From a virus, in the IMG/VR virus record IMGVR_UViG_3300031774_001564, positions 1 to 20,726 of that record: a stretch of DNA of 20,726 nucleotides. The stretch is one strand, 5' to 3'. Made by a program: the position numbers and the translations under genes. Position 1 is the first letter of the stretch. Every line of letters starts with the position of its first letter. The notes under the pieces are model-generated. The model had not been told where the DNA came from, ran no database searches, and saw nothing but the letters and a program-made list of their open reading frames with translations. Below, piece after piece: positions 2-18,552 of the stretch.

Positions 2-340
2 ATCGTAGTACACATAGATAAAGACCTTGATTGTATCGTAGGACAGCACTATAACCCTCGTAGATCAGAGTTCTATGAGATCGATGAAAACACTGCTGAC
101 CTTAAGTACTGGCTTCAGATGCTTAAGGGTGATCCTACTGATAACCTTCCGGGGCTACCTAAGATTGGCCCCAAGAAGGCAGAGAAAATGCTTAATGGTG
201 TTCCTATGGAACGTAGAAAGAACCGAGTCATTGCAGCTTATAGAGCTAAATATGGCATAGTCAATTGGAAGGAGAAGTTATTAGAAACTGCTAACGGTAT
301 TCATATACTACGCAGTGCTGACGACTTCTTTAAGGTGTAA
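2..340 (+). CDS. 5'-3' exonuclease, FEN / T7 gp6 type (partial, C-terminal part)
   Basis: This is the C-terminal 112 residues of a gene that begins before the window; the frame is open to the left edge. Near the left edge it reads DKDLDCIVG, the end of the metal-binding nuclease core. About 30 residues later comes GDPTDNLPGLPKIGPKKA, the helix-3-turn-helix DNA-binding motif of FEN-1, the Pol I 5' nuclease and T7 gp6. In T7-like phages this enzyme removes RNA primers, degrades host DNA to supply nucleotides and acts in recombination. The stop (338-340) is one base from the next ATG, and the AAGG of the next ribosome binding site lies inside this gene, so translation is probably coupled. The family call is firm. 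Completeness and the exact subfamily cannot be judged here. Confidence 0.9.
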   Translation: MVVHIDKDLDCIVGQHYNPRRSEFYEIDENTADLKYWLQMLKGDPTDNLPGLPKIGPKKAEKMLNGVPMERRKNRVIAAYRAKYGIVNWKEKLLETANGIHILRSADDFFKV

Positions 341-341
341 T

Positions 342-1007
342 ATGCAAGACCATCAACGTTATGAAGATGTAATAATCACTGCTGTCTCTACTGCAGACAA
401 CGGTGGTTGGGTTGGTATCACTACCGAAGAGCATGGTGAAATCAGATGTAAGTCTAACTTACGTACTAAACTTAAGTTAAAGAAAGGATGGGAAGGTGAC
501 CTGACTGTATGGGTTAACCCTAACGGTGGCACTGTGTGTGTTGCTTTTGATCAGAAAGCTTGGAAGCATACGGGTGCTATGGCACAACCACATGGTCAAT
601 GGGAATTGACTGCTGGTCTAACTGAACTACACCCTTATGAGAAGGAGGGGTTCGTCTATCGAATCACTGAAATCTCTACTGGTAAGATGTATATCGGTAA
701 GAAGTCTTACTGGAACTACAGCAAAGGTAAACGTGTACGACAATCTAATTGGAAAATATACGGCTCTTCAGGTGTAGATACTGCTGAGAAAGTCTCAGAC
801 AATCCTGAAGCCTTTGAATACGAAATACTTTGTGAAGCGCCTGACAAATCTGGTTTGAACTATATGGAAGTGTATTACCAAATAAAGTTCGAAGCATTGA
901 CATCAGTTGACGAGCAAGGTGAAAAGCTTTATTACAACAAAACACTTGGTAGTGAGAAATGGATGCTCACCCAATCATTTATTGAGGAGTACAATGAAAC
1001 AGCGTAA
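342..1007 (+). CDS. GIY-YIG family endonuclease with an unassigned N-terminal domain
   Basis: A 221-residue protein. I chose the ATG at 342 because AAGG (332-335) sits six bases upstream and the preceding gene stops at 340; an in-frame ATG at 315 lies inside that gene. Residues 103-200 form a GIY-YIG nuclease: GFVYRI (103-108), KMYIGKK (115-121), WKIYGSS (137-143), a candidate catalytic Glu in YMEVYYQ (E176) and a closing YYNKTLG. The family cuts DNA by a single metal-dependent active site; phage members are homing-type or host-DNA-degrading nucleases. Residues 1-75 look beta-rich (for example GGWVGITTEEHGEI and LTVWVNPNGGTVCVAF), and I do not recognise this part. It sits where a T7-like phage could use a junction or degradative endonuclease, but that role is inference. 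The gene overlaps the next one by 14 bases. Confidence 0.78.
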   Translation: MQDHQRYEDVIITAVSTADNGGWVGITTEEHGEIRCKSNLRTKLKLKKGWEGDLTVWVNPNGGTVCVAFDQKAWKHTGAMAQPHGQWELTAGLTELHPYEKEGFVYRITEISTGKMYIGKKSYWNYSKGKRVRQSNWKIYGSSGVDTAEKVSDNPEAFEYEILCEAPDKSGLNYMEVYYQIKFEALTSVDEQGEKLYYNKTLGSEKWMLTQSFIEEYNETA

Positions 1008-3536: not shown

Positions 3537-3778
3537 AAGAAGAACCTAACTATGTAGCTTGGGTTCAATGCGATCGGGAAGATCTCGACGAGGTACGCGA
3601 GATGTTTCCTACTGAGGAATATGAATTAACTGTAGGTGTTAAGTCTAACTACGACCCTAGTACTTGCAGTGTAGAAACATTAAACAATCCACCAGCTCCA
3701 ACTTGGGGCGTAGACGTTTGGAAGCGAGAACTAAATGGAAGATGTGAAGGACTATCTCCTAACAAAGATTCGCGGTGA
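3512..3778 (+). CDS. small acidic protein, function unknown
   Basis: An 88-residue protein starting at ATG 3512 inside the end of the dCMP deaminase gene, with AAAGGT at 3495-3500 as a somewhat distant ribosome binding site. The N-terminal half is acidic (DREDLDEVREMFPTEEYEL). The C-terminal end overlaps the first 44 bases of the RNAP gene. No domain is recognised. Such small acidic early proteins of lytic phages sometimes inhibit host enzymes, but nothing here shows that. Confidence 0.6.
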   Translation: MQIYYGQIEEEPNYVAWVQCDREDLDEVREMFPTEEYELTVGVKSNYDPSTCSVETLNNPPAPTWGVDVWKRELNGRCEGLSPNKDSR

Positions 3779-5852
3779 AGACTTAGGTGTCAAGCCAAGG
3801 CGTAACCTACAATTAATGCGTATGATAGACACTGATGGTGTTGATATGCTTGACTTCTTAATTGAAGACATGATCACATACGCAAGAAAGACTATACAAC
3901 GCTGCTTTAAGCGTAGTAAAACAGAAGGAGAGACAGCCATTACTCAAGCTTCAATGGCGATTGGTAAACACATCATTGAGAACTGGGATAGCGATAACGT
4001 TAACTTCAGAGATCATGTTCGTGTTGGCGATCTTGTTATTGAGGGGCTAGTCATGTGCGGTTATCTCACTATTTCTGTTGGACATATGAAAAGTCGTAAG
4101 CCAGTAACTATCCATGCCACCGATAAATGGGGCGAAATGGAAGCAGTTGCTGGCAAAACTACTTGTATGACTGCAGATATCATTAGGCCAATCACTACTT
4201 TAATACAGGCCAATGATAAAAGCGTTATTAAAACGTGGGACAAGTCTAAAGAAAAGAAGTTTACTAATTATCTTAACCAACCATTTGTTAAGGCAATTGA
4301 TAAGCTACAAGCCACTAGATGGCTGGTCAACCCTGATGTGCATGAAGCTATCCTGCAGCAATGGGATTCCTTCATCAACAACGATGAGTATACAGGGGAG
4401 GACAAGAAAGAGAATGAAAAGCTTTATCAACGACAAGCATCTAAAAACCGAGAGGTTAAAGAGGTTATGGCTATCGCAGCTAAGTGGCTGCATACTGAGT
4501 TTAGCTTCTATCTTGATGCTGATTACCGTGGTAGGCTGTACTATTCCGAACCTTTCTTTAACTTTCAGGGTTCCGATATCGCTAGAGGGCAATTAATGTT
4601 TGCCAGAGGGCGTTTGTTTGACAGCAATGCTAGCTTCTGGTTAGGCGTGCATACTGCGTGCGCTTATAATCAGTCTTACGGTATCGATGAGATACCTGAC
4701 TGGGTGACTACTGACTATCGTAGTGCTTTAGAAGACGAAGAGCTAGACACCATCTCAGTAGACAAAATGACCCTAGAAGACAGAGCTATGTGGACACAGC
4801 AAAACATAGACAGCATAGTAGAGTTTGGTGGGCGTAAAGTGTTTATGCACGAAGCAGAGAAGCCTATCTCATTTTTGGCTTGCTGTATCGAGTGGTATAA
4901 GTATTCTCAGTGTGAAGGGGACTTCTATACTCGCTTACCTATTCCTATTGATGGGGCTAATAACGGCTGGCAACACCTAGGAGCTATGTCTAGGGACACG
5001 CTGACAGGCCGTCTGGTAGGCTTGATACCCACCCCTATCCAAAACGACTTCTATGTACAGGTGGCCAAGAGACTGTGCCAGAGGATGCCTGACTGGTTTG
5101 AAGAAAGACAAATGCCTATGAAGCATATCCGTAAAGGTATAGCTAAACGTGGAGCTATGACACGAGCTTATAGCTGTGGACAAAAGAAAATGTCTGAGTC
5201 TATGTACAGTGATTGTTATCAGTTCGGCTATACCGAGGAGTACAATATAAGCACTTGGGATTGCGATGAGCTTAGTAATCAAGTTATCCGGGCTATTCAA
5301 GAGGTTTGTCCGGGTCCACTAGATACTATGCGTTATCTCCAGCGACTAGCTGACCAAGAAATAACTAACTGGATGAGTACTTACGGCACTGACAGAGGAA
5401 AAGGAATTGAATGGACAACCCCTTCAGGCTTCCCTGTGATATACGAGTGCTATCGTACACGCCCCGTTAAAGTAGACTGCTACGGGTTTAACACACCCAC
5501 AGGTGAGATACGCTTTAAGCACGTTATCAGAGAGAAAACAGATATCCCTGACAGGCGTGGCTTTATGTGCGGTATCAGCCCTAACTTTGTGCATAGTATG
5601 GATGCCAGTCATATGGCATTAGTAGTTGCCAGTTGGGATCATGCCTTCGGCGCAGTCCATGACTCCTTCAGCACCCACGCTTGTGACGTTGAAGAGCTTA
5701 TGGTATCGACAAGAGAAAAGTTTGTAGAGATATACGACAAAGAAAACTTTTATAACGGTATACCATTTGGCTATGGCTATATGGGTGATGTACCTAGTAT
5801 TGGTGCATTAGATATTGATAAAGTAAAGGAGTCTGATTATTTCTTCTGTTAA
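3735..5852 (+). CDS. T7-type single-subunit DNA-dependent RNA polymerase
   Basis: A 705-residue RNAP, much shorter than the 883 of T7. An in-frame TAA (3732-3734) directly before the ATG fixes the start at 3735 or later. Conserved elements: DYRGR (263-267); motif A PIDGANNGWQH with catalytic D406; motif B KRGAMTRAY with K471 and Y479; PNFVHSMDASH (616-626); motif C VHDSFSTH with catalytic D643; and a C-terminal ESDYFFC like the ESDFAFA foot of T7 RNAP. DxxGR lies at 263 instead of 421, so the N-terminal promoter-binding domain is strongly reduced, and the segment between motifs A and B is about 29 residues shorter. The region of the specificity loop is kept. The position equivalent to T7 R627 is Lys (467). 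It should transcribe phage promoters. It is the last gene of its strand, directly followed by a terminator. Confidence 0.95.
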   Translation: MEDVKDYLLTKIRGEDLGVKPRRNLQLMRMIDTDGVDMLDFLIEDMITYARKTIQRCFKRSKTEGETAITQASMAIGKHIIENWDSDNVNFRDHVRVGDLVIEGLVMCGYLTISVGHMKSRKPVTIHATDKWGEMEAVAGKTTCMTADIIRPITTLIQANDKSVIKTWDKSKEKKFTNYLNQPFVKAIDKLQATRWLVNPDVHEAILQQWDSFINNDEYTGEDKKENEKLYQRQASKNREVKEVMAIAAKWLHTEFSFYLDADYRGRLYYSEPFFNFQGSDIARGQLMFARGRLFDSNASFWLGVHTACAYNQSYGIDEIPDWVTTDYRSALEDEELDTISVDKMTLEDRAMWTQQNIDSIVEFGGRKVFMHEAEKPISFLACCIEWYKYSQCEGDFYTRLPIPIDGANNGWQHLGAMSRDTLTGRLVGLIPTPIQNDFYVQVAKRLCQRMPDWFEERQMPMKHIRKGIAKRGAMTRAYSCGQKKMSESMYSDCYQFGYTEEYNISTWDCDELSNQVIRAIQEVCPGPLDTMRYLQRLADQEITNWMSTYGTDRGKGIEWTTPSGFPVIYECYRTRPVKVDCYGFNTPTGEIRFKHVIREKTDIPDRRGFMCGISPNFVHSMDASHMALVVASWDHAFGAVHDSFSTHACDVEELMVSTREKFVEIYDKENFYNGIPFGYGYMGDVPSIGALDIDKVKESDYFFC

Positions 5853-5904
5853 AAAAAATACCCCACAAGGTTTCCATATAGGATTCCCTGTGGGGTATTT
5901 TTAT
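5851..5904. terminator. bidirectional intrinsic terminator between converging gene blocks
   Basis: A perfect 14-bp stem (5854-5867 with 5889-5902, core ATACCCCACA / TGTGGGGTAT) is flanked by eight A on the left and five T on the right. Transcripts of either strand therefore end in a hairpin plus U tract. The 21-base loop has further short pairings (GG/CC and TCC/GGA). It starts right at the RNAP stop (5850-5852) and ends two bases from the stop of the opposite-strand 77-aa gene (5905-5907), so it serves both blocks. Confidence 0.93.
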
Positions 5905-6138
5905 TTAGCCTCTAGCTGCTTTTCTCATTCGACCAGCCTTTGCTCTTGCTTTATTCTCTGGCATCCCTTGTTTCATTAAGCCTTTGACATTGATTTCAAA
6001 TGCTCTTTGATACGCCGCATCATTAATCTTTGGGGTTCCAGCTAACTCTGGATCAAGCCTTAATGTATTGACAATATCAATATCGGTTACGCCTGTTCTA
6101 CTAAGTATATTATGATTTTTAAAGTTTTGTTTTTCCAT
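5905..6138 (-). CDS. small protein at the end of the virion operon, function unknown
   Basis: A 77-residue protein, last gene of the - strand block, with GAGGA seven bases before its ATG. That site overlaps the stop region of the upstream RNAP-like gene, so translation is probably coupled. It has a basic C-terminal third (MPENKARAKAGRMRKAARG) and no Cys. Residues 17-40 (VTDIDIVNTLRLDPELAGTPK) may form a short helical domain. No family is recognised. Being in the virion operon it may be a small structural or accessory protein; this is inference only. Confidence 0.7.
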   Translation of the reverse strand: MEKQNFKNHNILSRTGVTDIDIVNTLRLDPELAGTPKINDAAYQRAFEINVKGLMKQGMPENKARAKAGRMRKAARG

Positions 6139-6149
6139 ATGATTATCCT

Positions 6150-9100
6150 CTATCCATATTGTGCTGGTTCAGGAGCTAGCTCTTTAAATGCGTTTTGTCT
6201 AGCGCCTTCTGAATCCTTATATAATTCCATAAGTTTTGATTGAATGCGTTCTCGTTTAAATATAGCATTTATAAGCTGCTTTATTTTTTCGCCACTAAGA
6301 CTACCAGTTCCGTCAGCATTCCAATAGCCTCCTGCACCTGTTGTTGCTATCTTAAGTATTGCTTCATTAATATCACTCAAAGATGCTTTCCGTTCAGCTA
6401 TTACTCCGTCCATGTCTACTACTTTCTCTACGCCTTCTCTTTTTCTTGTATCTAGCATAACTAGCTCTTCATGCACTGCTCGATAAACAGATTCATAATC
6501 CATTGTATATTGTTCAGAATCATTAATCCTTTTAAATGCAAAGTTTTTAGTATCCATTAAACCTTTAGCAACAGCGCTAGCTAAGGAATATCGTTTATTT
6601 ACTTTAGTAAAATTCCTATTCATAGCTTCGTAGTATTTATTTACTGAAGATGCATCTGTAATAATAGCATCATGGATTGGTATTACAAAAGCCGGGGGCT
6701 TCATATCATACCCAGATGTGCTGCCATAACCTACATCGCTGTTTACTTCATTGATAGACTCAATCATAACCGCTGCATCTATCTGTTGTATTGGTAACAC
6801 GGGAAGTTGGTTAGCTACTTCTTGTCCAAACCTGCTGGCTTTTTCTATAACCCACTTGCCCTCCTTCATACGCAAACCTCTGCTTTGCATTGGAGCGCTA
6901 CCTGTTACTCTAGGTTTAAACACATCTAAACTAAGTACCTCAACACCTGTATCTACATCTAATGTTTGTCCTGTTCTATACATTTCAGTAGAACCCATAT
7001 AAATCATATTACCTGCTGGTCCTTGGATACCTAATGTAGTTCCTAGCATTGCAGAAAGTAATCCTGCTTTTTTAAACAATGCTTGATGTTTAAAATTTAA
7101 GGTTGATTGTACTGTTCCTGCAATAATCAAGTTTAAATCTTTAATCATCTCCTCTTCAGAGTATCTACTGCCTTGATAACCTTCAGTAGACAGTAAGTTT
7201 CCTGTTAACTCTGTATCACCTATAAATTCAGTTGCAGTTTCTTCATTGAATAAAAAATAACGACCATATGAGATTTCCATAAGCGGTTGTTTACTTAGTA
7301 ACTTAAGTATTTCTCTTTGTTGCGCTGGACTCATATTAGCAAACTTAGAATCTGATCCAACAAAAATACTATTCCAAAACATTAACTTGTCGTCCGTCAT
7401 TCCACCAGATTTAACAGCGTATTTAATCCCTTCGTTTAACTTTTGACCAAACAAACTACGGACATCACCCCACGGTAATACATTTTCTGGGTTGTCAAAT
7501 ATCATACCTACTCGATTTAAGATATCTAAGTTTCCCATTTGCATTGCTTGTATTGCAATACCGTTTTGTTTACCATCATGTTGTGTTTGCGCTTTTGCTT
7601 TAAACGATTTATTTTCTTTTAATGCTATATCATAGTTAGCTACATCAATATACGATTGATACTTGTAACCCCATTCGCCTTTCGTTTTAAACTCGCTAAG
7701 AAGCTCTGCAAGCTCTGGATCATTAACAGTAAATCCATCTAGATTTGATCGAGGGTCTAATGCTATTGCAGCTAACATTTTCTTAAGCATATTTCCTTTC
7801 TTAACCCAGTCATCATAGCGTGGACCATTAAAGGCTTGCCTGCTAGCCTCCATAATAGCTGACCATCCCATGTCTTCTGCTTCTCTTCCCCTTAAATCTC
7901 TATCAGGATCTAATAAGTTTCTTCCTGTTATGTATATAAAGTTTTTAAAAATCTGAGACTCACGATCTCTATTAGGATTAATGACAACATCAACTGCATT
8001 GCCTACAAACATACGAGCTAAGCTTTTACTGTCCTGTGTGTTTAATACAGTATTCCTGAAGAACAAACGACCCACAGTATCAGCATCAAATATTTTATTA
8101 TAAAAAGCTTTACCTGATTTTTGAATACCGTGTTGAGTTATCTTTAACAGTTTCCTAGCTTCTTGACGCATTACCATATTTGCTTGGTCAACAGCTGCTG
8201 ATTCACTCATAGTTTTTATTGCATTATCATACGCTTTGCGCCATTTCTTTTTATCTAAACCTAACGTGCCTGCAAACTCCCTAGTCGAATACTCTAGTAC
8301 TCTTCCATCGGCGCTAGTGTCTGTTGCTCCTAGTATCCTTATTGCTCTTCCATCAAAAGAAATAAGCGAATCAACCATCATTTTTGCCATTACAAAACGT
8401 TCTTGTACTACTTTATGCGGCAAAGCGCCTAATAAACTTTTAGCCCGGTCTTGTTTAGCAGTGTTTTTATCCATATAAGTTTTTCTGGATCTATCACCTA
8501 CTTTTTTAAAGCCTTTTTCTCTTCCTCGTCCGGGTAACGAAGAACCACCCATTGTTGGCGAAGATGAAGTATCTACCTCACCTAAGAAACCCATATCAAT
8601 TAATAAATTCTGATTACCTCTTGCCCAAAGTACGCCAGTATCACTGAGTGCCGGGATTAACTCTCCCGTTTCTTGAACAGGTACGTCTACATAATGCCCA
8701 TCCGCATTAATTGCTTGAGTAAATATAGCAGACAAAGCAGCTACCGCATCTGAATCAGCGGCTGCACCTGCACCCCCATAATTAACGGACACTTCATCGC
8801 TAAGCCTATTAACGTTCTCACCAATAATATCTAATACTTTTATACCTAACTGATTACGAACTATATCAGCACCAATGGGTACGTCTTCTGTAGATTCCGC
8901 AGCATCATAGTTACCGCCTAACTTTTTTCTTTGTACCTTAAGCTCATTTTCTTTATTTAATAAATCATTACCAATTAAAGCTTGCGCTAACATAACTGCA
9001 CGCCCTACCTTAGGGCTCAGCGCTCCTGTATCTGGATCATACGCAGCAGTCTCTGACAGAACTCGCCTAACTTTATCTCCTGTCTCGGTGTCCTCTGTCA

Positions 9101-9767
9101 ATATGCCTAACATCATTGGGGTCAACTGATCATTCATCAGATCCCCTCGGTTAACTAACGTTTCAATATCATTCTGAACGTCTAAAGCGTCTCTGTCTCT
9201 GTTTAGCTCAGAGGGTTTGTAATCAAACCGTTGTGCATACTGATCCGAATCAGTAATTGGTTCTAATTCTTCTTTTGCAATAACCTCTTCTGCTGTCCCA
9301 ACTAACGTTTCAGGCTCTAGCCTAATATTCTGTTGCTTTTGAGCCTCAAGTTCAGCAGCTATACCTGCTTCTTGGGCATCTAATTCATTTGTAAACTCAA
9401 ACTCAGTATCGGGGATCTCATCTCCAACTATTCCCTCTTCAACCGGAAGATCCATGTTTCCCGTTGCAGGGTTAAATCTTTTTGATGAGCCAGCTTTTAC
9501 AACTGGACCCATACGCTTATCTACTACGGGTTGCAAACTACCTGTCTCAGCAATCGCAGCATCTATTTGTCTTGAAGGGTCAGACTCAATTTGAGGCATC
9601 ATAGGTATTGCTTGCGTTTCTAACTTTGGTACTCCAGAAAAATCTCCTGGAAGCCTTGGGCCACGCGCTTGTCCAGCTTGTAGTCGCCCTATTGCATCCA
9701 TTGTATTTTGTCGTGCTTCTGCTTGTCTTTGTTTTTTACTTTTAATTGGGCCAAGATCTCTTGCCAT
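6150..9767 (-). CDS. probable virion-associated RNA polymerase (N4 vRNAP-like, single-subunit family)
   Basis: A 1205-residue protein encoded in the virion operon. Residues 540-1060 carry the motifs of single-subunit RNAPs: DTVGR (563-567, the DxxGR motif) followed by LFFRN; motif A QHDGKQNGIAIQAM with D731; motif B KQPLMEISYGRY with K826, Y834 and G835; a QQIDAA segment (994-999) where T7 has HSQDGS; and motif C IPIHDAII with D1033. The spacings (164, 95 and 207 residues) are close to those of T7 and N4 RNAPs. The first 450 residues are acidic, Gln/Asp-rich and unrecognised, and may serve packaging or ejection. I infer a polymerase carried in the particle and injected to transcribe the first genes, as in phage N4. 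AGGAG lies eight bases before the ATG. A structural protein without activity is possible, but all catalytic residues are present. Confidence 0.83.
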   Translation of the reverse strand: MARDLGPIKSKKQRQAEARQNTMDAIGRLQAGQARGPRLPGDFSGVPKLETQAIPMMPQIESDPSRQIDAAIAETGSLQPVVDKRMGPVVKAGSSKRFNPATGNMDLPVEEGIVGDEIPDTEFEFTNELDAQEAGIAAELEAQKQQNIRLEPETLVGTAEEVIAKEELEPITDSDQYAQRFDYKPSELNRDRDALDVQNDIETLVNRGDLMNDQLTPMMLGILTEDTETGDKVRRVLSETAAYDPDTGALSPKVGRAVMLAQALIGNDLLNKENELKVQRKKLGGNYDAAESTEDVPIGADIVRNQLGIKVLDIIGENVNRLSDEVSVNYGGAGAAADSDAVAALSAIFTQAINADGHYVDVPVQETGELIPALSDTGVLWARGNQNLLIDMGFLGEVDTSSSPTMGGSSLPGRGREKGFKKVGDRSRKTYMDKNTAKQDRAKSLLGALPHKVVQERFVMAKMMVDSLISFDGRAIRILGATDTSADGRVLEYSTREFAGTLGLDKKKWRKAYDNAIKTMSESAAVDQANMVMRQEARKLLKITQHGIQKSGKAFYNKIFDADTVGRLFFRNTVLNTQDSKSLARMFVGNAVDVVINPNRDRESQIFKNFIYITGRNLLDPDRDLRGREAEDMGWSAIMEASRQAFNGPRYDDWVKKGNMLKKMLAAIALDPRSNLDGFTVNDPELAELLSEFKTKGEWGYKYQSYIDVANYDIALKENKSFKAKAQTQHDGKQNGIAIQAMQMGNLDILNRVGMIFDNPENVLPWGDVRSLFGQKLNEGIKYAVKSGGMTDDKLMFWNSIFVGSDSKFANMSPAQQREILKLLSKQPLMEISYGRYFLFNEETATEFIGDTELTGNLLSTEGYQGSRYSEEEMIKDLNLIIAGTVQSTLNFKHQALFKKAGLLSAMLGTTLGIQGPAGNMIYMGSTEMYRTGQTLDVDTGVEVLSLDVFKPRVTGSAPMQSRGLRMKEGKWVIEKASRFGQEVANQLPVLPIQQIDAAVMIESINEVNSDVGYGSTSGYDMKPPAFVIPIHDAIITDASSVNKYYEAMNRNFTKVNKRYSLASAVAKGLMDTKNFAFKRINDSEQYTMDYESVYRAVHEELVMLDTRKREGVEKVVDMDGVIAERKASLSDINEAILKIATTGAGGYWNADGTGSLSGEKIKQLINAIFKRERIQSKLMELYKDSEGARQNAFKELAPEPAQYG

Positions 9768-9816: not shown

Positions 9817-12800
9817 TTAATAAGATCCCAAAAAGAAATCTTTTATTTCATTGTCAGTGGGTGGACTCATACCTTTATAAGGGTTAGTCCCGGTAAGTGC
9901 TTGCGCTGCATGGCTTCTTGGACGTGTAAATGGTCCTATGAATGGTGTTGCCTTTAGAATATTTCTAACTCCGCGTTCACCTTCCCCTTGCAGAAGATCG
10001 CCAACACCTCCTGCCACATTCTGTACATTCCTAACAGTCGGTCCTGACTCACCTAATACTGCATTCATAAGCCAATCAACGCCTTCATCTCTTTGTGGGT
10101 AAAGTGGATGTACTATATCCGCAACCCTTTCGAATTGACCCATAACGCCTGAAGCATACACTGCTCTTTGAATATAACCTGATGTGTCTAGATAAGGACT
10201 AGGCGCACCAAACTTAGCTAAGTCTTTAATATACTGAGACGCTGCACCTAAGACAAGAAGAATCATAATTAAAGCAAATGTTTCATATTTAACTTTTATG
10301 TTCCCTCGTCTTAACGCTCGATCATATAGCTTGGGAATTATATTAGCTGTAAAAGCACTTATAAAACCATTAAACTGTGTGATAAGCTGAAAGTGAGGAT
10401 CTTGAAAGAACAATGGACGATTACCATGTCCCGGCATTTGAATACGCTCATGAACATAACGTTGAATCGCGTTAGACAACTCATCAGTAATATATTCTGC
10501 AGTTTCTGTTATTTCGTCTGCATAATCTTCATTCATTGCTTGATCATTAGAAACAAATTCACCCTCTTGCATAAGGCTTTTGACTCTATTTTTTACTATC
10601 TTACGAATAGCAGCCTCACGCTGTGTAGGTGGTCTAATCACCTCTACCTCTTGATCATCTCCTTGCTTAACAGTTTCTTTTCTTAAGTGAGAGCTGACCC
10701 CATCAGTAATAGTCAACGCCGCATTCCTAGACATAGAGTCTAAGTCTTCCATTAGAATCATTATGCGGTCTACGTTAATACCTAACGAAGTAAGCTGATT
10801 ATAAGCTCCCATTTCTGCTTCAGTAAACTTATCAAAATCAAAATTATAAATTGATCTTTCTTCTGCAGCAATCTCTTGCTCATCATTAATTACTACGTTT
10901 TCCTTTGCCTTAGGCTTCTCCTTGCCTCTAATATAAAGCTTAGTCGGCGCAGTTTCTAACACCGCAAACGCTGTTTTAATCGCGTCTAAAGCAACAACTG
11001 CAACAATACGTCTTTGTAGCTGAGTAATAGTCTGAATACCTGTACCCTTAAAGAATACTTCATGTACTCTTGCAAAGGCTACATCTCGCTCACCCGTTGC
11101 TAAACGATCTGCAATGTTATTAATACTGCTGTCTAACCCTACACTATCCGCTAACTTTCGTCCACGATTAGCTTCTGAGTCTAATGCTTTAGAAAAGCTA
11201 GTAGTTACTTGTCTAACCATTTGATCAGTTGCTTGCTTAAACATTTGATCATCTTTAATATCAAAGTAAACCATTCCAAATTCAGGCAATGAAGCTGGCA
11301 TTGATAGAGGTAATCCTGCTAACACTGACCAACTTGTAGCAAAGGAATTTAAGGCTGCTGCCTTTGGATTCTCAATTCGATTGTAATTGCCATTCATTGC
11401 ATTGATCATCGATCGAATATAAAAAGCAAATTGAATTAGCTCATCCCGAGTAAGATCTCCTTCACGCTCTAAACGCCTAAACAAACGATGTAACTTCCAA
11501 CCGCCTTGCCCAAAGTATTTTGCATTTGCAGTATACCTAGCCGCATCTAATTGAACTTTATTTAATGTAGCAAATATATTCATGCTAAAGAAACTTTTTT
11601 CTTCTTTAGATAAATCTGCTTTTGCTTGTTTTCTAGTTACACCTTCTTTTCGTTTACCTTTACCCTCCAGATTTGGCTCGTTAGTCTTAGGATCAATTTT
11701 AAGCTCATAAGGATAAATCCATTTGCTAGCTGGAAGAACCTCCCTAACTACGTCCATTAACTTTCTAGCATCTTTTGAAAAAGCAAAGGGTACGCCTGTA
11801 GTATTGGGATCTACTAAAGAATATTCTACTCTCGTATTAGAACCCACTCCTACCTCGGCAGGATTAATTGTTTGTTCTCCACGCCTAGAGATGCTTTCAT
11901 ATATACGTTGTGCATCTGTTGCGGAATAGTCTAGTTTTTCTACCAACATTTTTTTAAATCCAACAGGATTCTTTCTTGCTGCTTTCCAATTAAATCCTTG
12001 GAACAACCACCACATATCAATGTCGTAAGATAATTCTTCTTCTTTATTTTCTTTTTTATATTCTTCATTTGCACGAGAGAATACATAATCATAAGAACGT
12101 TTAATCCTTTCTGCTGATAGGAAATTACGTTCTAGCTCTGCAAGCATAGCCTGACTCATTTCTTCAGGTTTAATATCACCCTCTAAAAATTGAGCTAATG
12201 TTTCAAGCTTAATTAAGCTATCTGCATCCGCATACTCAGCAACTGCTTTTTGATAAGCTGCTAACTCTCTCGAAAAGATAATTGGATCTTTTGAAAAACC
12301 TATAAGCGTTAATCGCTCGACAATTAAATCATACGCTATCTGAGTATCGGCTCGGTCAGCTTCCGTTAATGTATTTGAAAGTATTTGATTCCTTAAATCA
12401 ATAGCTTCTTGAATTACCTTATTTAAGTTTGGCTGTTTTGATTGCAACTGATAAACATTATAAGCCCAGTAGCCTCCTGAACGCCCAAACTCTATTAAAG
12501 TTCGCGAGATGTTTAAAGCATCCTTCCATCTCATTGCAGTTCTTCCAAATGCCTTTGCAATTGTTAATTCATCAAGTAATATTTTTGCTTTAGTAATAAT
12601 CTCTTGCTGAAATTCTTTTGCATTCTGTCCTGAGTGAACTACATCTCCTAGCGTTCCTCCAATTCTTGAAAGGATATCCAGTATAATGGGGTTCGCAATT
12701 GCTCTAGCCGCTTTAATTGCTGATCGTTCTGCGCCTCTGACTAAACGCCCTGTGCCAACCGCTAATGCATCAACCAAGTCGCTAACATTTTCAATGTTTC

Positions 12801-14982
12801 TAATTACATTTCGCATGCCTTTACGTTTAGATATATACTCATTAGCCAGTGAGCCTGTCTTATTAAACTCAGCGGCTGGAGTATATGATACGATTCCATC
12901 TGCTTTTAACTGTTGTAGTCTAGATAGCTCTGTTTGGCTATTAGCGCCAGCATCTACTGCTGCATCTGCCTCTTCAAAAGATAACTGTCTTCGGGTTCCG
13001 TTTCTACGACCTTCAATCTCTTGTCTTACTCTAGCTTCAAAATTTCTTGCACGTTCAACATCTGCTTTAGCCGAATTTATTGCTTTAATATACTCTGGAT
13101 CATTTTTATTATTTGGAGCTGTGTCTTCAAGTATTTCTAAAGTTTGTTCAGCTGATTCTAATGGTGTCTGTATTGTTCTATTTGGATCTTTCTTAGATGA
13201 AACTGGCTTCCCTTCTAAAGCTTCAGTAAGCTCTTTATCTGACATTGTAGCAGTGCGATCACGCTCTAGCTGTAATTTTCTAGCCGCTTCAATTCTGGCT
13301 ATGGCTTCATCTACAGTCGTAACACCTGATAAATCAAGATCAGGTAGTGTAGGGTCTTCCCCTTTTAGTGCCGCATTATCTCGATCAAGGTTTTGCTGGA
13401 TAGTAGCTACACCCTCTCCGGATTGCATTCTGCCTATCTTATATAGCTCAAATAAACTAAGCCGTTCTAAATCCCTTCTGTTCCTAGATGCTTTCTCTAG
13501 TCGATTACGCCCTTGCATATATGTATTAGCACCAGCTCCGATGCCTCCACCTAATGCACCACCAGCAAGCGCAGCATTTGTTAGCCTGTGCTTAACTTCA
13601 TCGGCCTCGTAAGTTGTATCAGAAAATCCAGCAGCTGTTCCCATTGCTAAACTTTCCTGCCCAACCTCAGTCAACGACTCTCTAGCCATGCCTGCCATTG
13701 TTGCTTTGCCCAAAGAACTTTTTGAAAAACCAGCAATGTCATCTGCTTTAAGACTGACTAGTCCTGTAAAGAATTCACGTTGTGCTTTCCCCACTTTGCT
13801 CGCGAACAACCTAGTTGCTTGCTCGTGGTCTAAACCTCGTGCCATCAATGCCTCAACAATTTTCTTTTTGCCTGCAGCACTAAACACTTGTACTGGTACA
13901 ACCAATCCCCTCAAGCCAAGTAATTCTAAGGATGCTTGCCCTACACCTGACATTGATGCAGCGACAAATTGAGAGATACCTTTCTCCCCTTCCATCTCAT
14001 TCCAAGTTTGACCTGCATATACGACAGAAGTTGGAAGCAATGCTAACGCACCTGTAGTGACTGCACCACCACCCACTAACGCTGAAGCGGGTATTGCAGC
14101 CGCTAAAGCTGCAAAAGTAGTTATCATGTATGGCGCAGACATTGCTGCATTATTCATAACCCACTGGAATCCAGTAGATAGATTCTCTACTTGATCATAA
14201 TTTAAAAGCAACTCAGGAGTGTTTGCTATTTGAGACCTTGCTCTCATTGCTCCCTGTGCGCCGAGATTTTCTAGCATCTCAACGTCAGACATCTCTCCAA
14301 TCGCTTCGAGATAACCAAAAGCACCTTCTTTAATGCTATCCCAACCTGTACCAAAAGAATATGCTGCACCCGATAGTAAACCTTTAGGCTTATTATCAAT
14401 AGTGCGGTCATGGTCCCGGAACTGAACGCCCGAATGAAAGTTAGGATCAAAGGTTGATTCATCTAGAGCTAATGATTTAAACAACAGGCCTTGCGAGTCT
14501 CGTTTAGCATCAAGCTCTTTCCGTTGCTTTGCAAATAAACTATTGCGATCCCCAAAGAGAGCGCGATACATTTCACCTTCTCTTTTAAGTGTTACATTTT
14601 TTTCTGATGAAAAACGATCTAGCTTAGCCAATCCTTCTTTGTACAAGACATCTGAAATCATCTCTCCGTTATCATTCATTAAAGGAGCTAAGCTTCGATC
14701 ATATTTATCTTCCTTGCCTGTATTAATAATATTTGTAAAGCCACCTTGATCAATGACATCGGCAACGACTTGAGTATTTAAGTCGCCGCCTAATTCACCT
14801 CGCCTAAACTCGAATGATCCGTCACTGTTCTGAATTAGCTTATCTGTTTCTAATCCGTCAAATCCTGTGACTCTTGTTCGTTCGCCTGTGCGTTTATTAA
14901 GGAGAGTATCACTATCAATGAGTACTTGGGTATCTCCATTTTGATCTTTGAACGAACGTATTCTATTTAGACTGTTATCCAT
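9817..14982 (-). CDS. giant internal virion (ejection-type) protein with N-terminal SNase-like nuclease domain
   Basis: A 1721-residue protein. Residues 17-123 match the staphylococcal nuclease fold: LIDSDTLL (D25), TRVTGFDGLE (R37, D42, E45), DKYDRSLA (R96) and ISDVLYKEGLA. These correspond to D21, R35, D40, E43 and R87 of staphylococcal nuclease, so every catalytic residue is present. Hydrophobic Ala/Gly-rich stretches at about 284-323 and 465-487, and a likely membrane helix at about 1569-1585, suggest a protein that enters or crosses membranes during DNA ejection. The middle (about 500-1550) is mostly charged and helical. A QDP..QLITQFNGF segment before the last helix is typical of very large podovirus virion proteins. 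AGGAG lies nine bases before the ATG, overlapping the stop of the lysozyme gene. The virion role is inferred from size, operon and hydrophobic profile. Confidence 0.85.
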   Translation of the reverse strand: MDNSLNRIRSFKDQNGDTQVLIDSDTLLNKRTGERTRVTGFDGLETDKLIQNSDGSFEFRRGELGGDLNTQVVADVIDQGGFTNIINTGKEDKYDRSLAPLMNDNGEMISDVLYKEGLAKLDRFSSEKNVTLKREGEMYRALFGDRNSLFAKQRKELDAKRDSQGLLFKSLALDESTFDPNFHSGVQFRDHDRTIDNKPKGLLSGAAYSFGTGWDSIKEGAFGYLEAIGEMSDVEMLENLGAQGAMRARSQIANTPELLLNYDQVENLSTGFQWVMNNAAMSAPYMITTFAALAAAIPASALVGGGAVTTGALALLPTSVVYAGQTWNEMEGEKGISQFVAASMSGVGQASLELLGLRGLVVPVQVFSAAGKKKIVEALMARGLDHEQATRLFASKVGKAQREFFTGLVSLKADDIAGFSKSSLGKATMAGMARESLTEVGQESLAMGTAAGFSDTTYEADEVKHRLTNAALAGGALGGGIGAGANTYMQGRNRLEKASRNRRDLERLSLFELYKIGRMQSGEGVATIQQNLDRDNAALKGEDPTLPDLDLSGVTTVDEAIARIEAARKLQLERDRTATMSDKELTEALEGKPVSSKKDPNRTIQTPLESAEQTLEILEDTAPNNKNDPEYIKAINSAKADVERARNFEARVRQEIEGRRNGTRRQLSFEEADAAVDAGANSQTELSRLQQLKADGIVSYTPAAEFNKTGSLANEYISKRKGMRNVIRNIENVSDLVDALAVGTGRLVRGAERSAIKAARAIANPIILDILSRIGGTLGDVVHSGQNAKEFQQEIITKAKILLDELTIAKAFGRTAMRWKDALNISRTLIEFGRSGGYWAYNVYQLQSKQPNLNKVIQEAIDLRNQILSNTLTEADRADTQIAYDLIVERLTLIGFSKDPIIFSRELAAYQKAVAEYADADSLIKLETLAQFLEGDIKPEEMSQAMLAELERNFLSAERIKRSYDYVFSRANEEYKKENKEEELSYDIDMWWLFQGFNWKAARKNPVGFKKMLVEKLDYSATDAQRIYESISRRGEQTINPAEVGVGSNTRVEYSLVDPNTTGVPFAFSKDARKLMDVVREVLPASKWIYPYELKIDPKTNEPNLEGKGKRKEGVTRKQAKADLSKEEKSFFSMNIFATLNKVQLDAARYTANAKYFGQGGWKLHRLFRRLEREGDLTRDELIQFAFYIRSMINAMNGNYNRIENPKAAALNSFATSWSVLAGLPLSMPASLPEFGMVYFDIKDDQMFKQATDQMVRQVTTSFSKALDSEANRGRKLADSVGLDSSINNIADRLATGERDVAFARVHEVFFKGTGIQTITQLQRRIVAVVALDAIKTAFAVLETAPTKLYIRGKEKPKAKENVVINDEQEIAAEERSIYNFDFDKFTEAEMGAYNQLTSLGINVDRIMILMEDLDSMSRNAALTITDGVSSHLRKETVKQGDDQEVEVIRPPTQREAAIRKIVKNRVKSLMQEGEFVSNDQAMNEDYADEITETAEYITDELSNAIQRYVHERIQMPGHGNRPLFFQDPHFQLITQFNGFISAFTANIIPKLYDRALRRGNIKVKYETFALIMILLVLGAASQYIKDLAKFGAPSPYLDTSGYIQRAVYASGVMGQFERVADIVHPLYPQRDEGVDWLMNAVLGESGPTVRNVQNVAGGVGDLLQGEGERGVRNILKATPFIGPFTRPRSHAAQALTGTNPYKGMSPPTDNEIKDFFLGSY

Positions 14983-14994
14983 TGTGGAATACTC

Positions 14995-17900
14995 CTACTG
15001 TTTAATATCTTGGAATACTTTAAGGGCTTTCTTATGGGAAGGTGAATTCTTATTTAAACACTCACGAACCCAATTCATAAACGGATTTACGCCTGTACCA
15101 CCTGCTTTTAACCATAATTTAGGTGCTTTACCAGCGTTTGCTAATGCCGTATACTTAGTCCAAGTTGTTTTATAAGTTGCCCAAATTCTTTTGTATTCCT
15201 TTGCGGCAAGATCTGCCCTTGTTTTATCGTCTAATCCGGCGAAAGCTTTGCTTTGAATTTGATTATCGATTTTACCAAATACTTTTGCTTCAGTACCTTC
15301 AACATCAGAACTCGAAACAATGCCACCTGTTTCATTAGCTATCTTTCTCTTTTGGTAGTAAACCTCTAATGACTTAGGTTCAAGACCATCTTCCCTGCCG
15401 TCTCTGATCCATCTTGCATAGTCTCTATAATATTCGTCTTGTGCAAGATTAAGGTTTCTTATTACATCCTCACGCAATGGTGCGCTCAATCCGCCAAATC
15501 TTTTCTTCTCTTTATTATAGAGCGAAGCGGCTTCATCAGAAATTGTAAGATTTAAACGGTCAGGAACTTGATCTACTTCTTTCTCAATTGGCTGGTTTAC
15601 ACCATCTAAATAAGTTTTTCCAGTAGTCCTAAACTCTTTCCTTATCTCTGTAAGATCATGAAGTGACGCTTGATAATCTTCAAGATACGGAACAATTTGA
15701 GGATCATCTAATCTATAAGGCGTACCGTTAACATTTACATACTCTCGCTTATCTCCTGCTATATAAGTTGGTAATACACCTAACTTTCTGTGGTATACTT
15801 TACCTCCTCGCTTTACAAAACCTGATTGTCCTTGCGAATCTAGTTCATCTAAATAATCTTTAGCTGCATAACGAGCAGAGTCTAAGTGTTCATAGCCTAA
15901 GATACGGCTACCTAAATATAATGTTGCCATTCGAGCAAGAAGCTTTTTATCAAACATATGACCGAAATTACTTTTAACCCAACCATATGCTGCTTCCCAA
16001 CCTGCAGGATCGTCTGTTTTACCTTTATCACCTTCTTTTTCTACCTGCTCTTCAGATACCCCATCGGTATCTTGTTTAGTCTTACTAACTCCCGGAAGAG
16101 GTACTAATTTATCTTCAGGTTTAAGTTTAGGTGGTACTGCTGTTCTACCAGCTGGCTCATTAAATATAATTTCATCTTCTGAACCATCCCAAGAACTTAA
16201 ACCTAAACGTTTTCCATTTGGCCCCATCATAGCTACAAATTTACCATCTGGAGTTTTATAAACTGGATAACCGTCTGGTCTTTCACCAACTAGTATTTCG
16301 CCTTCTTTTGGTCCGTAATTAGGGTTTGAAGTTGGCGCTGTAAAATAATCACCAATGTTTCTACCTGCATCACCTAAAAACTCACCGAATCCGCGTGTAT
16401 ACTCTCGGTCTTCTGCGTCTACATACTCCTCTTTTTCTTCATTCCAAACATAAGGAACGCCATTGCGAACAATAGTATCATGAACACCGTATTCACCTTG
16501 GTCTTCTCCGACAGGCTTTGGTGGTGTCTGAACAACGGGAGGCACTGCTTGATTATTCGAAGCAATGACAGGCATATTATGAGCTTGTGAATGACCTGCT
16601 GCAGGCGCAGACACTACTGGATTTGTTGAAGTAGAAGGCTGACTGCTTCCAAACCAAGACCGAGGATCCCACCAAGAGCCACTACCACTAGCATAATACT
16701 GAGGTACTTGACCTCCGCTTGAGTAGTAGCTAGGTATCTTTCCACCACCTGATCTATATTTATAATTTTCCATTACTTGATCTGCAAACACATTACGTTT
16801 TCCATACGCTGTAGCTCCTGCTCTTTCAAATATATCTTGAAATATTTGAGAAGCTAGTTGCGGAGTATCTGCTCCTTTCCATTTTTTATTCTTTGTTAAT
16901 TCTGCCCATTCAGGCTCTTGCATCATGAACTCAAGTTGTATTAAAGGATCACGCCATTCACGATCTTGACTTTCTGCAAATTCTTTTAAGTTAGCAAAAC
17001 GATCGTAGACGTAAGCACCTTTATTGTCCACATTAGCTTTTGGATCCCAACGAAATTTAATTCCATTAACTATTTTCGTTGGACCTTCTTTAGGATGTTC
17101 GGCTCTTGACAAAGTCACTGAAGCACCGCCCCATTGAGCCGCACCTCTTCCCGGGCCACCCTTTTGAAATGTACCAAAGTCAATAGTATCTTTTATTGTA
17201 TTCCCAGAGAAGGTTTTATTAGGTACATACGATCCTGTTTCGTGCGCAAAATTACCAACAATTCCAGCTGCTTGCTCGGGAGATAATCCTTTGCTTACAA
17301 GATACCCCATTAGATCATTTGTTTTCATTTCATAAGAGGGATGAGATAAATATCTTGGGATTTCGTTTGCACGATCTGTATTTGCATATGCGCTTAAAGG
17401 TACTGGTAATGCCATACTGCTATCAGACCTATCATCCATAACTACAGGTGGCTCTAACAAATCATAAACTGAAGAATCCTTTTCACCTGTAGGTATTCTT
17501 ACATCTCCTTCAGGTAAAAGAGGTGGCATCTCAGGCGGTCTACGTACAGGCATAGGCTCCTCAATGACTCTAGAAGGACTGATAGGAGGTATTAGGGACT
17601 CCTCACTACCATCATGAATAGTTGTTGCAGGAACATTCTCCTGAACTGACCATGATGTTGGTGTTTCCGTTTTATGAACCGTCAGATTTACTTCGGGTCG
17701 TGGAGCTGCTTTAATCTTAGGAATTCTATACCCGTCTGAATGATAAGAAGGAACTTTAGCTCCTCCTGAATTCCAAGGAGTCCAATCTACATTTGAAAGA
17801 TATTCAGGTATACCACCCACCGCATCTGTAGCTCCACCAGCCGCTTGCTTTAACGCTTCCCAAGAGAACATATCAGGCGATCTTTTTCGCATACCATGTG

Positions 17901-18552
17901 GTCGGTATGTACGTCCATCCCACCAAAAATCTTTTCCTTCTTGAGGTCGGCTACCGCCAGCTGCATATGTAGGAACAGGTCCACCACTAAACCGTTCAAG
18001 CGGCCTTATTGACTTACTATGTTCTATAGAATTTTCAATAGCTTCAGGAAGAGAATTAAAAATACCTGTAGGTTCTAATGAACCATCACGAATACCTTTT
18101 CTTAAATAATCTTCATTACGTTCAACTCCATTCTGAATAGAAGGTATATTATAAATTTGACCTAAACCTATTGGCATATCCATTATAGGAATTGATCTAC
18201 CTCTTTCAGATACATATTTACCTTCGTCAGTGCGGAAAATAGGTCTCCCATATTGTGTATAATTACCAGTGTTTTTTCCAACCTGTTCATTATTTGATGC
18301 ATATGTAGGGATAGGGCCACCTTGAGCTTCTTGCATCATGCGTCCTTCTTCATTCATGGCATCGATAACTGGCTGATACTTGCGCGAAGCTTCTGCATTG
18401 ACTACATTCTCTCCCGGAGTAAGCCATGCTGGATGAGTGTCTGTACCACGAGGTTCCCCCGGATGATCCATCTGAGGTACTTCTGGAGTATCAAATTCGA
18501 TCGAGAACATACCACCGTGGCGATCCTTTCTCGTCATCTTTTTAATATTCAT
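14995..18552 (-). CDS. large virion protein with phage tail lysozyme domain
   Basis: A 1185-residue protein. Residues 405-598 match the phage tail lysozyme family: LSPEQAAGIVGNFAHETGSY with the probable catalytic E438, and GRGAAQWGG (469-477). This domain opens peptidoglycan during genome entry. Residues 36-52 read GTDTHPAWLTPGENVVN, a motif common in phage tail and tape-measure proteins. Six GG-x-x-P-x-Y type repeats are scattered along it (near 78, 190, 263, 603, 613 and 916-931), between linkers rich in Pro, Ser and Gly (300-400, 630-690). The C-terminal 350 residues are charged and unrecognised. The ATG overlaps the TAA of the upstream gene (TAATG) behind a strong AGGAGGT. It is probably part of the ejection apparatus or tail tip. 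Confidence 0.88.
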   Translation of the reverse strand: MNIKKMTRKDRHGGMFSIEFDTPEVPQMDHPGEPRGTDTHPAWLTPGENVVNAEASRKYQPVIDAMNEEGRMMQEAQGGPIPTYASNNEQVGKNTGNYTQYGRPIFRTDEGKYVSERGRSIPIMDMPIGLGQIYNIPSIQNGVERNEDYLRKGIRDGSLEPTGIFNSLPEAIENSIEHSKSIRPLERFSGGPVPTYAAGGSRPQEGKDFWWDGRTYRPHGMRKRSPDMFSWEALKQAAGGATDAVGGIPEYLSNVDWTPWNSGGAKVPSYHSDGYRIPKIKAAPRPEVNLTVHKTETPTSWSVQENVPATTIHDGSEESLIPPISPSRVIEEPMPVRRPPEMPPLLPEGDVRIPTGEKDSSVYDLLEPPVVMDDRSDSSMALPVPLSAYANTDRANEIPRYLSHPSYEMKTNDLMGYLVSKGLSPEQAAGIVGNFAHETGSYVPNKTFSGNTIKDTIDFGTFQKGGPGRGAAQWGGASVTLSRAEHPKEGPTKIVNGIKFRWDPKANVDNKGAYVYDRFANLKEFAESQDREWRDPLIQLEFMMQEPEWAELTKNKKWKGADTPQLASQIFQDIFERAGATAYGKRNVFADQVMENYKYRSGGGKIPSYYSSGGQVPQYYASGSGSWWDPRSWFGSSQPSTSTNPVVSAPAAGHSQAHNMPVIASNNQAVPPVVQTPPKPVGEDQGEYGVHDTIVRNGVPYVWNEEKEEYVDAEDREYTRGFGEFLGDAGRNIGDYFTAPTSNPNYGPKEGEILVGERPDGYPVYKTPDGKFVAMMGPNGKRLGLSSWDGSEDEIIFNEPAGRTAVPPKLKPEDKLVPLPGVSKTKQDTDGVSEEQVEKEGDKGKTDDPAGWEAAYGWVKSNFGHMFDKKLLARMATLYLGSRILGYEHLDSARYAAKDYLDELDSQGQSGFVKRGGKVYHRKLGVLPTYIAGDKREYVNVNGTPYRLDDPQIVPYLEDYQASLHDLTEIRKEFRTTGKTYLDGVNQPIEKEVDQVPDRLNLTISDEAASLYNKEKKRFGGLSAPLREDVIRNLNLAQDEYYRDYARWIRDGREDGLEPKSLEVYYQKRKIANETGGIVSSSDVEGTEAKVFGKIDNQIQSKAFAGLDDKTRADLAAKEYKRIWATYKTTWTKYTALANAGKAPKLWLKAGGTGVNPFMNWVRECLNKNSPSHKKALKVFQDIKQ

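Follow-up and report, generated by a model that had tools for sequence, protein, structure and literature searches.

The minus strand of the phage sequence analysed here, which stems from environmental DNA, very probably encodes a compact single-subunit RNA polymerase (RNAP) of the phage N4 virion RNAP (vRNAP) kind, an assignment that rests on homology, fold and conservation, activity being inferred in the absence of activity data. The window, i.e. the whole stretch of DNA analysed, is a complete IMG/VR record of 20,726 bases and hence a fragment of a phage genome. The open reading frame (ORF) concerned runs from ATG to stop (6150..9767, minus strand) and codes for 1,205 amino acids (aa), none of which is cysteine. 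The product shows RNAP homology and fold, a conserved catalytic site, closest kinship to the N4 vRNAP and single-domain size, and its gene lies at the end of the late operon. It is likely that a lineage of small RNAPs has been overlooked, the probable location of these enzymes in the particle being inferred.

Gene, neighbours and catalytic site

The window comprises two convergent modules, separated by a bidirectional terminator-like hairpin that was read from the sequence (~5851..5905). The plus strand carries replication genes and the other RNAP of the phage, a T7-type enzyme of 705 aa with 17 cysteines (3735..5852, plus strand; Pfam RNA_pol, 7.5e-60; PHROG RNA polymerase, 2.6e-104). The minus strand carries the late operon, which ends with the 1,205-aa polymerase gene and, directly downstream of it, a small conserved cysteine-free ORF of 77 aa (5905..6138, minus strand), with relatives of 83 and 86 aa at the same position. 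The adjoining genes code for a putative ejection protein of 1,721 aa without cysteine that matches a virion structural family (9817..14982, minus strand) and for a putative ejection or tail protein of 1,185 aa with one cysteine and a phage tail lysozyme domain (14995..18552, minus strand). The N-terminal part of the 1,721-aa protein (residues 87-129) shows a partial SNase-like match, which is unusual for such a protein. Elsewhere, a 230-aa protein (315-1007, plus strand) bears the PHROG 447 label 'NAD synthetase', a name also given to gp22 of Roseobacter phage CRP-7, yet homing-endonuclease families match it too; the label is likely to be mistaken.

The polymerase contains a D/TxxGR motif (DTVGR; residues 563-567; 8067..8081, minus strand), of which R567 corresponds to R424 of N4 and R425 of T7. 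This is followed by motif A (DGKQNG; residues 731-736; 7560..7577, minus strand), with D731 equivalent to N4 D559 and T7 D537, motif B (KQPLMEISYG; residues 826-835; 7263..7292, minus strand), with K826 equivalent to N4 K670 and T7 K631 and Y834 to Y678 and Y639, respectively, and motif C (HDA; residues 1032-1034; 6666..6674, minus strand), with D1033 equivalent to N4 D951 and T7 D812. The spacings between R567, D731, K826 and D1033 are 164, 95 and 207, compared with 112, 94 and 181 in T7 (R425/D537/K631/D812) and 135, 111 and 281 in N4 (R424/D559/K670/D951), the latter values being taken from the retrieved sequences. Conservation was assessed in an alignment of 38 homologues, consisting of metagenomic relatives and phage CRP-7, with identities down to ~16%. 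R567, D731 and D1033 were invariant (38/38), Y834 was a tyrosine in 37 of the 38, and the K826 column contained lysine in 30 and arginine in eight. D563 was not conserved, being mostly S, N or T among the homologues, and N4 itself has TxxGR; the H1032 column contained tyrosine in 16 of the 38 sequences, and CRP-7 gp33 has a relaxed motif A (DARQSN). The homologues in which arginine naturally replaces the motif B lysine include those of loci L043, L048, L028, L062, L006 and L030, and CRP-7 gp33. This lysine has been proposed to act as the general acid in RNAPs.

An unguided joint alignment of the polymerase family with 13 N4-like vRNAPs and 11 T7-type RNAPs placed the five catalytic residues (R, D, K, Y and D) of all three groups in common columns. 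Similarly, K581 and R585 (8013..8027, minus strand) aligned with N4 K437 and R440, which grip the initiating nucleotide (PMC4496689). The K437 column held lysine in 38/40 family members and in 13/13 N4-like vRNAPs, versus aspartate in 11/11 T7-type RNAPs. Furthermore, an AlphaFold2 model of residues 151-1205, based on an alignment of 36 sequences (mean pLDDT 78.1, pTM 0.80), predicted a right-hand palm/fingers/thumb single-subunit RNAP fold, the catalytic residues not having been superposed in three dimensions; residues 1 to ~190 of the protein are largely disordered or of low confidence. Foldseek matched the model in the PDB to mitochondrial RNAP, T7 RNAP and the N4 mini-vRNAP (E 4e-14 to 2e-10), with moderate TM-scores (0.4-0.57), as expected at ~10% identity, and the best viral matches in BFVD were phage RNAPs and vRNAPs.

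The original prediction, made from the sequence alone, had claimed a second single-subunit RNAP among the structural genes of a phage that also encodes a T7-type RNAP. The 1,205-aa ORF and its surroundings held, the strand, which had been left unstated, being the minus strand; so did the T7-type RNAP (3735-5852), the motif positions (DxxGR 563-567, D731, K826/Y834/G835 and D1033) and, when recomputed from the sequences, the spacings together with the T7 and N4 comparison values. The DxxGR motif held in part, R567 being invariant and D563 not conserved. The claim would have been refuted by a predicted structure without a polymerase fold or by unconserved catalytic residues. Both points were checked: a single-subunit RNAP fold was found, and D731, Y834 and D1033 were conserved, K826 occurring as K or R. 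The identification as a second single-subunit RNAP held on homology, fold and conservation.

Kinship and distribution of the family

In the PHROG collection, phrog_2206 ('virion RNA polymerase') matched residues 562-760 (E=6.7e-8), and this family as well as phrog_414 (RNA polymerase) was each matched by 8/36 aligned family members. In addition, an hhalign comparison of the family profile with an N4-like mini-vRNAP profile gave a probability of 99.2 (E=3.4e-19), against E=1.2e-5 for the T7-type RNAP and E-values of 0.06-0.97 for reversed or shuffled control profiles, the controls quoted for the N4-like match spanning 0.06-0.85. The likeness in motifs is far beyond chance, because R567, D731 and D1033 are invariant at ~16% identity and the scrambled controls scored weakly. 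With a small database, an N4-like HMM found the window protein at E=1.5e-9 and its relatives at values down to 3e-15, whereas a T7 HMM reached only 0.26 for the window protein. Neither Pfam nor a phmmer search of PDB sequences returned anything useful for the 1,205-aa protein, both being too insensitive at such divergence. A phylogenetic tree, displayed with the T7 type as root and containing some long-branched rows, among which CRP-7 gp33, resolved three groups, namely the family (94/79; grouped in 98% of the bootstraps), the N4-like vRNAPs (100/98) and, apart from the other two, the T7-type RNAPs (100/100). The family formed its own clade beside the Schitoviridae vRNAPs and apart from the T7-type RNAP encoded by the same phages. 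To judge from profile comparison, HMM and tree grouping, the protein seems to belong to a sister lineage of the Schitoviridae vRNAPs instead of being a truncated member, and it is nearer to the N4 vRNAP than to T7 RNAP.

N4 gp50 and the other Schitoviridae vRNAPs, in particular the mini-vRNAP (residues 998-2103), share with the family the single-subunit fold, the catalytic residues, the K/R pair for the initiating nucleotide, the lack of cysteine in the stretches examined, the place as last gene of the late operon and the presence of a second, T7-like RNAP in the phage. However, Schitoviridae vRNAPs measure ~2,850-3,820 aa (PMC10654107), whereas the members of the new family measure 1,160-1,370 aa. 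A canonical N4-type vRNAP is a giant protein of ~3,500 aa with three domains (an N-terminal domain, the RNAP and a C-terminal domain), which the 1,205-aa window protein does not match. In N4 gp50, the N-terminal domain inserts in membranes and the C-terminal domain autoinhibits the RNAP (PMC12633501); neither is present in the window polymerase, which consists of the catalytic core only. The possibility that the 1,721- and 1,185-aa neighbours represent split-off gp50 domains or homologues of gp51-53 found no support, as their families showed no profile similarity to gp50, gp51, gp52 or gp53, although distant kinship could escape a comparison in which gp51-53 were single sequences. The window protein is not a canonical schitovirus vRNAP, and an N4-vRNAP-like way of working is inferred by analogy.

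Shortened vRNAPs of ~2,083 aa are already known from the Alteromonas phages R22Y and PT11-V19, which also have a second RNAP and the vRNAP gene in the same place (PMC11705849), but these N4-type enzymes are still ~900 aa longer than the window protein, and that study classes V19 as a schitovirus; a V19-type vRNAP was not found by the HMM of the new family in a small database. CRP-7 gp33 occupies the same place, is cysteine-free and keeps the catalytic R, D, Y and D, with K as R, but is very divergent (~16% identity). T7 RNAP (gp1) and the Autographiviridae RNAPs belong to the same superfamily and possess the same catalytic residues, but are cysteine-rich and carry D where N4 has K437. T7 RNAP is not known to be a virion protein. 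Finally, internal proteins of Zobellviridae and StenR_269, likewise large, cysteine-free and encoded among late genes, have been suggested as vRNAPs based on size, helical content and absence of cysteine (PMC10747016); the large proteins of ICP2 gave no match to RNAP profiles in a small database.

A tblastn search of 50,697 phage records returned weak matches only, all of them to vRNAPs of Vibrio phages, which were schitoviruses wherever taxonomy was examined, and querying viral contigs directly with the 1,205-aa protein alone gave no match. With the T7-type RNAP of the window as query, 79 related IMG/VR loci were recovered, and in nearly every locus with a contig extending well past that RNAP, a polymerase homologue was located immediately downstream of it on the opposite strand. 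Two loci missed by the profile carried a divergent homologue, BLAST-related to CRP-7 gp33. No relative was found in a bacterial genome collection. Among cultured phages, the podovirus CRP-7 encodes the homologue as gp33 (1,235 aa), annotated as 'hypothetical protein'; the CRP-7 paper names ORF30 alone as RNAP and places the phage among the non-N4-like podoviruses (PMC6918029). The longest relatives measure 54-58 kb and are similar to CRP-7. The genome that carries the polymerase may not be that of a schitovirus, with the reservation that the seven Schitoviridae hallmark genes of PMC10654107 were not searched individually. In one relative (G003, the 54,067-base record behind L138), the T7-type RNAP gene is split over both contig ends, and this record may represent a circularly permuted near-complete genome. 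No description of the polymerase family was found in the open-access literature searched, most subscription journals being outside the search. The family is easy to miss, because a published IMG/VR search with N4-vRNAP models dropped everything below 2,500 aa, for the most part as T7-like RNAPs (PMC10654107), and would thus leave out this family.

Inferred location in the particle and rival explanations

The original prediction had further described the enzyme as particle-borne, and as unusual beside a T7-type RNAP. The former is supported only indirectly, by gene position, neighbours and absence of cysteine, without virion proteomics; on these grounds, packaging in the virion and ejection are inferred to be likely. 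The latter held in part, as a T7-like second enzyme, RNAPII, is present in N4 as well (PMC4496689); what is unusual is the small size together with the apparently non-schitovirus genome. The late operon terminates in the polymerase gene, which has the position of the vRNAP genes of N4 and Alteromonas phage V19, and the adjoining lysozyme-bearing 1,185-aa and virion-type 1,721-aa proteins possibly are ejection proteins, as inferred from their sequences. Cysteine was absent from 38/40 family members (~1,200 residues each) and from 13/13 N4-like vRNAP stretches, versus 9-17 cysteines in the T7-type RNAPs of the same phages. The neighbouring protein families are nearly cysteine-free too. However, the late genes of three genomes were cysteine-poor as a whole (~3 per 1,000 residues, versus 14-20 on the early strand), so that the absence of cysteine is supporting evidence and not proof.

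The likely explanation is that of a compact virion RNAP, which would be made late and packed in the capsid with its large neighbouring ejection proteins, and which would be ejected into the cell together with the DNA. There it would transcribe the early genes before any phage gene expression, probably from small hairpin promoters, as the N4 vRNAP does, after which early products and the T7-type RNAP would take over middle and late transcription. Packaging, ejection, early transcription and hairpin promoters are all inferred. The replacement of K826 by R in 8/38 homologues, the moderate TM-scores and the lack of proteomics and activity data speak against this explanation.

An active second RNAP that is made late but not packaged, serving for instance a late gene class or replication priming, seems unlikely. 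RNAP homology is equally compatible with such a role, no proteomics exists, and late expression is expected for a late-operon gene. However, the protein is cysteine-free like the ejected N4 vRNAPs and unlike the T7-type RNAP in the same genomes, it adjoins large, nearly cysteine-free virion-type proteins, and its nearest kin are all virion enzymes. There is even less reason to assume a virion or ejection protein that retained the RNAP fold and lost polymerase activity. This could be argued from the arginine substitutions at K826 and the relaxed motif A of CRP-7 gp33, but R567, D731 and D1033 are invariant and Y834 is nearly so at ~16% overall identity, and the NTP-binding K581 and R585 are retained. 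Equally improbable is a divergent duplicate of the T7-type RNAP, unrelated to the N4 vRNAP, that acquired similar motifs. The phrog_414 matches and the T7 profile match (E=1.2e-5) are in its favour, but the N4 profile match is much stronger (E=3.4e-19), and both the tree and the K437 signature place the family with N4.

Candidate hairpin promoters and significance

The early region lies outside the window, so that evidence for promoters comes from relatives and not from this phage itself. In relatives with an early region, early genes are repeatedly preceded by a two-hairpin element, located immediately before the ribosome-binding site and start codon. Its first stem is variable in sequence (nine pairs, eight of which with changes on both sides, and several G-U), and its second hairpin is a conserved 6-bp AGGAYA-N4-TRTCCT, three pairs of which show changes on both sides. 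Pairing across both stems was found in 96.4% of the cells, versus 29-49% for slid partners, and for the second hairpin alone in 100%, versus 26-50%. The early regions of G001 and G002 each contain three copies, with a chance expectation of 0.2-0.5 per genome. Copies of the element were noted at L140:185-200, L140:672-687 and L140:2955-2970, as well as at L145:9239-9254 and 9746-9761 (G002 49239 and 49746), and also in L219, L235 and L197. In L219 and G009, an intrinsic terminator with a T run takes the place of the first stem, so that hardly any space is left for a promoter apart from the hairpin. The definition of the motif was made only once it had been seen. No Rfam match was obtained in the four early-region loci searched, CRP-7 has no clear copy, and total hairpin counts per genome were not raised in most relatives, the specific early element alone standing out. 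A looser hairpin motif, scanned genome-wide, was rejected as mostly chance; 10/80 loci examined from the collection scan shared many genes with the phage group. Sites resembling those of host sigma-70, a point against early transcription by an ejected polymerase, are present in the early regions of the relatives, but no more often than by chance. The element resembles the extruded hairpin promoters of N4, but with loops of four bases instead of three. It is a lead only, and may be a vRNAP promoter or a terminator plus promoter.

According to a bolder reading, for which doubt slightly outweighs confidence, a lineage of podoviruses from marine and other aquatic habitats, lying outside the Schitoviridae, would inject a free-standing minimal RNAP via its own ejection machinery. 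Infection would start from a new type of hairpin promoter with a 6-bp stem and a 4-nt loop (AGGAYA-N4-TRTCCT), and would depend neither on host RNAP nor on the N4 domains to which roles in membrane passage and autoinhibition are ascribed. N4-like phages are seen as marked out by virion RNAPs of the single-subunit type, and the giant multi-domain architecture of these enzymes is believed to be important for ejection. With a family reduced to the core, it becomes possible to test which parts are required for packing, passage through the tail and refolding; the enzyme is small enough to be expressed whole, and CRP-7 offers a cultured relative. If the explanation as a virion polymerase is true, early transcription in a widespread group of aquatic phages may not need the host RNAP.
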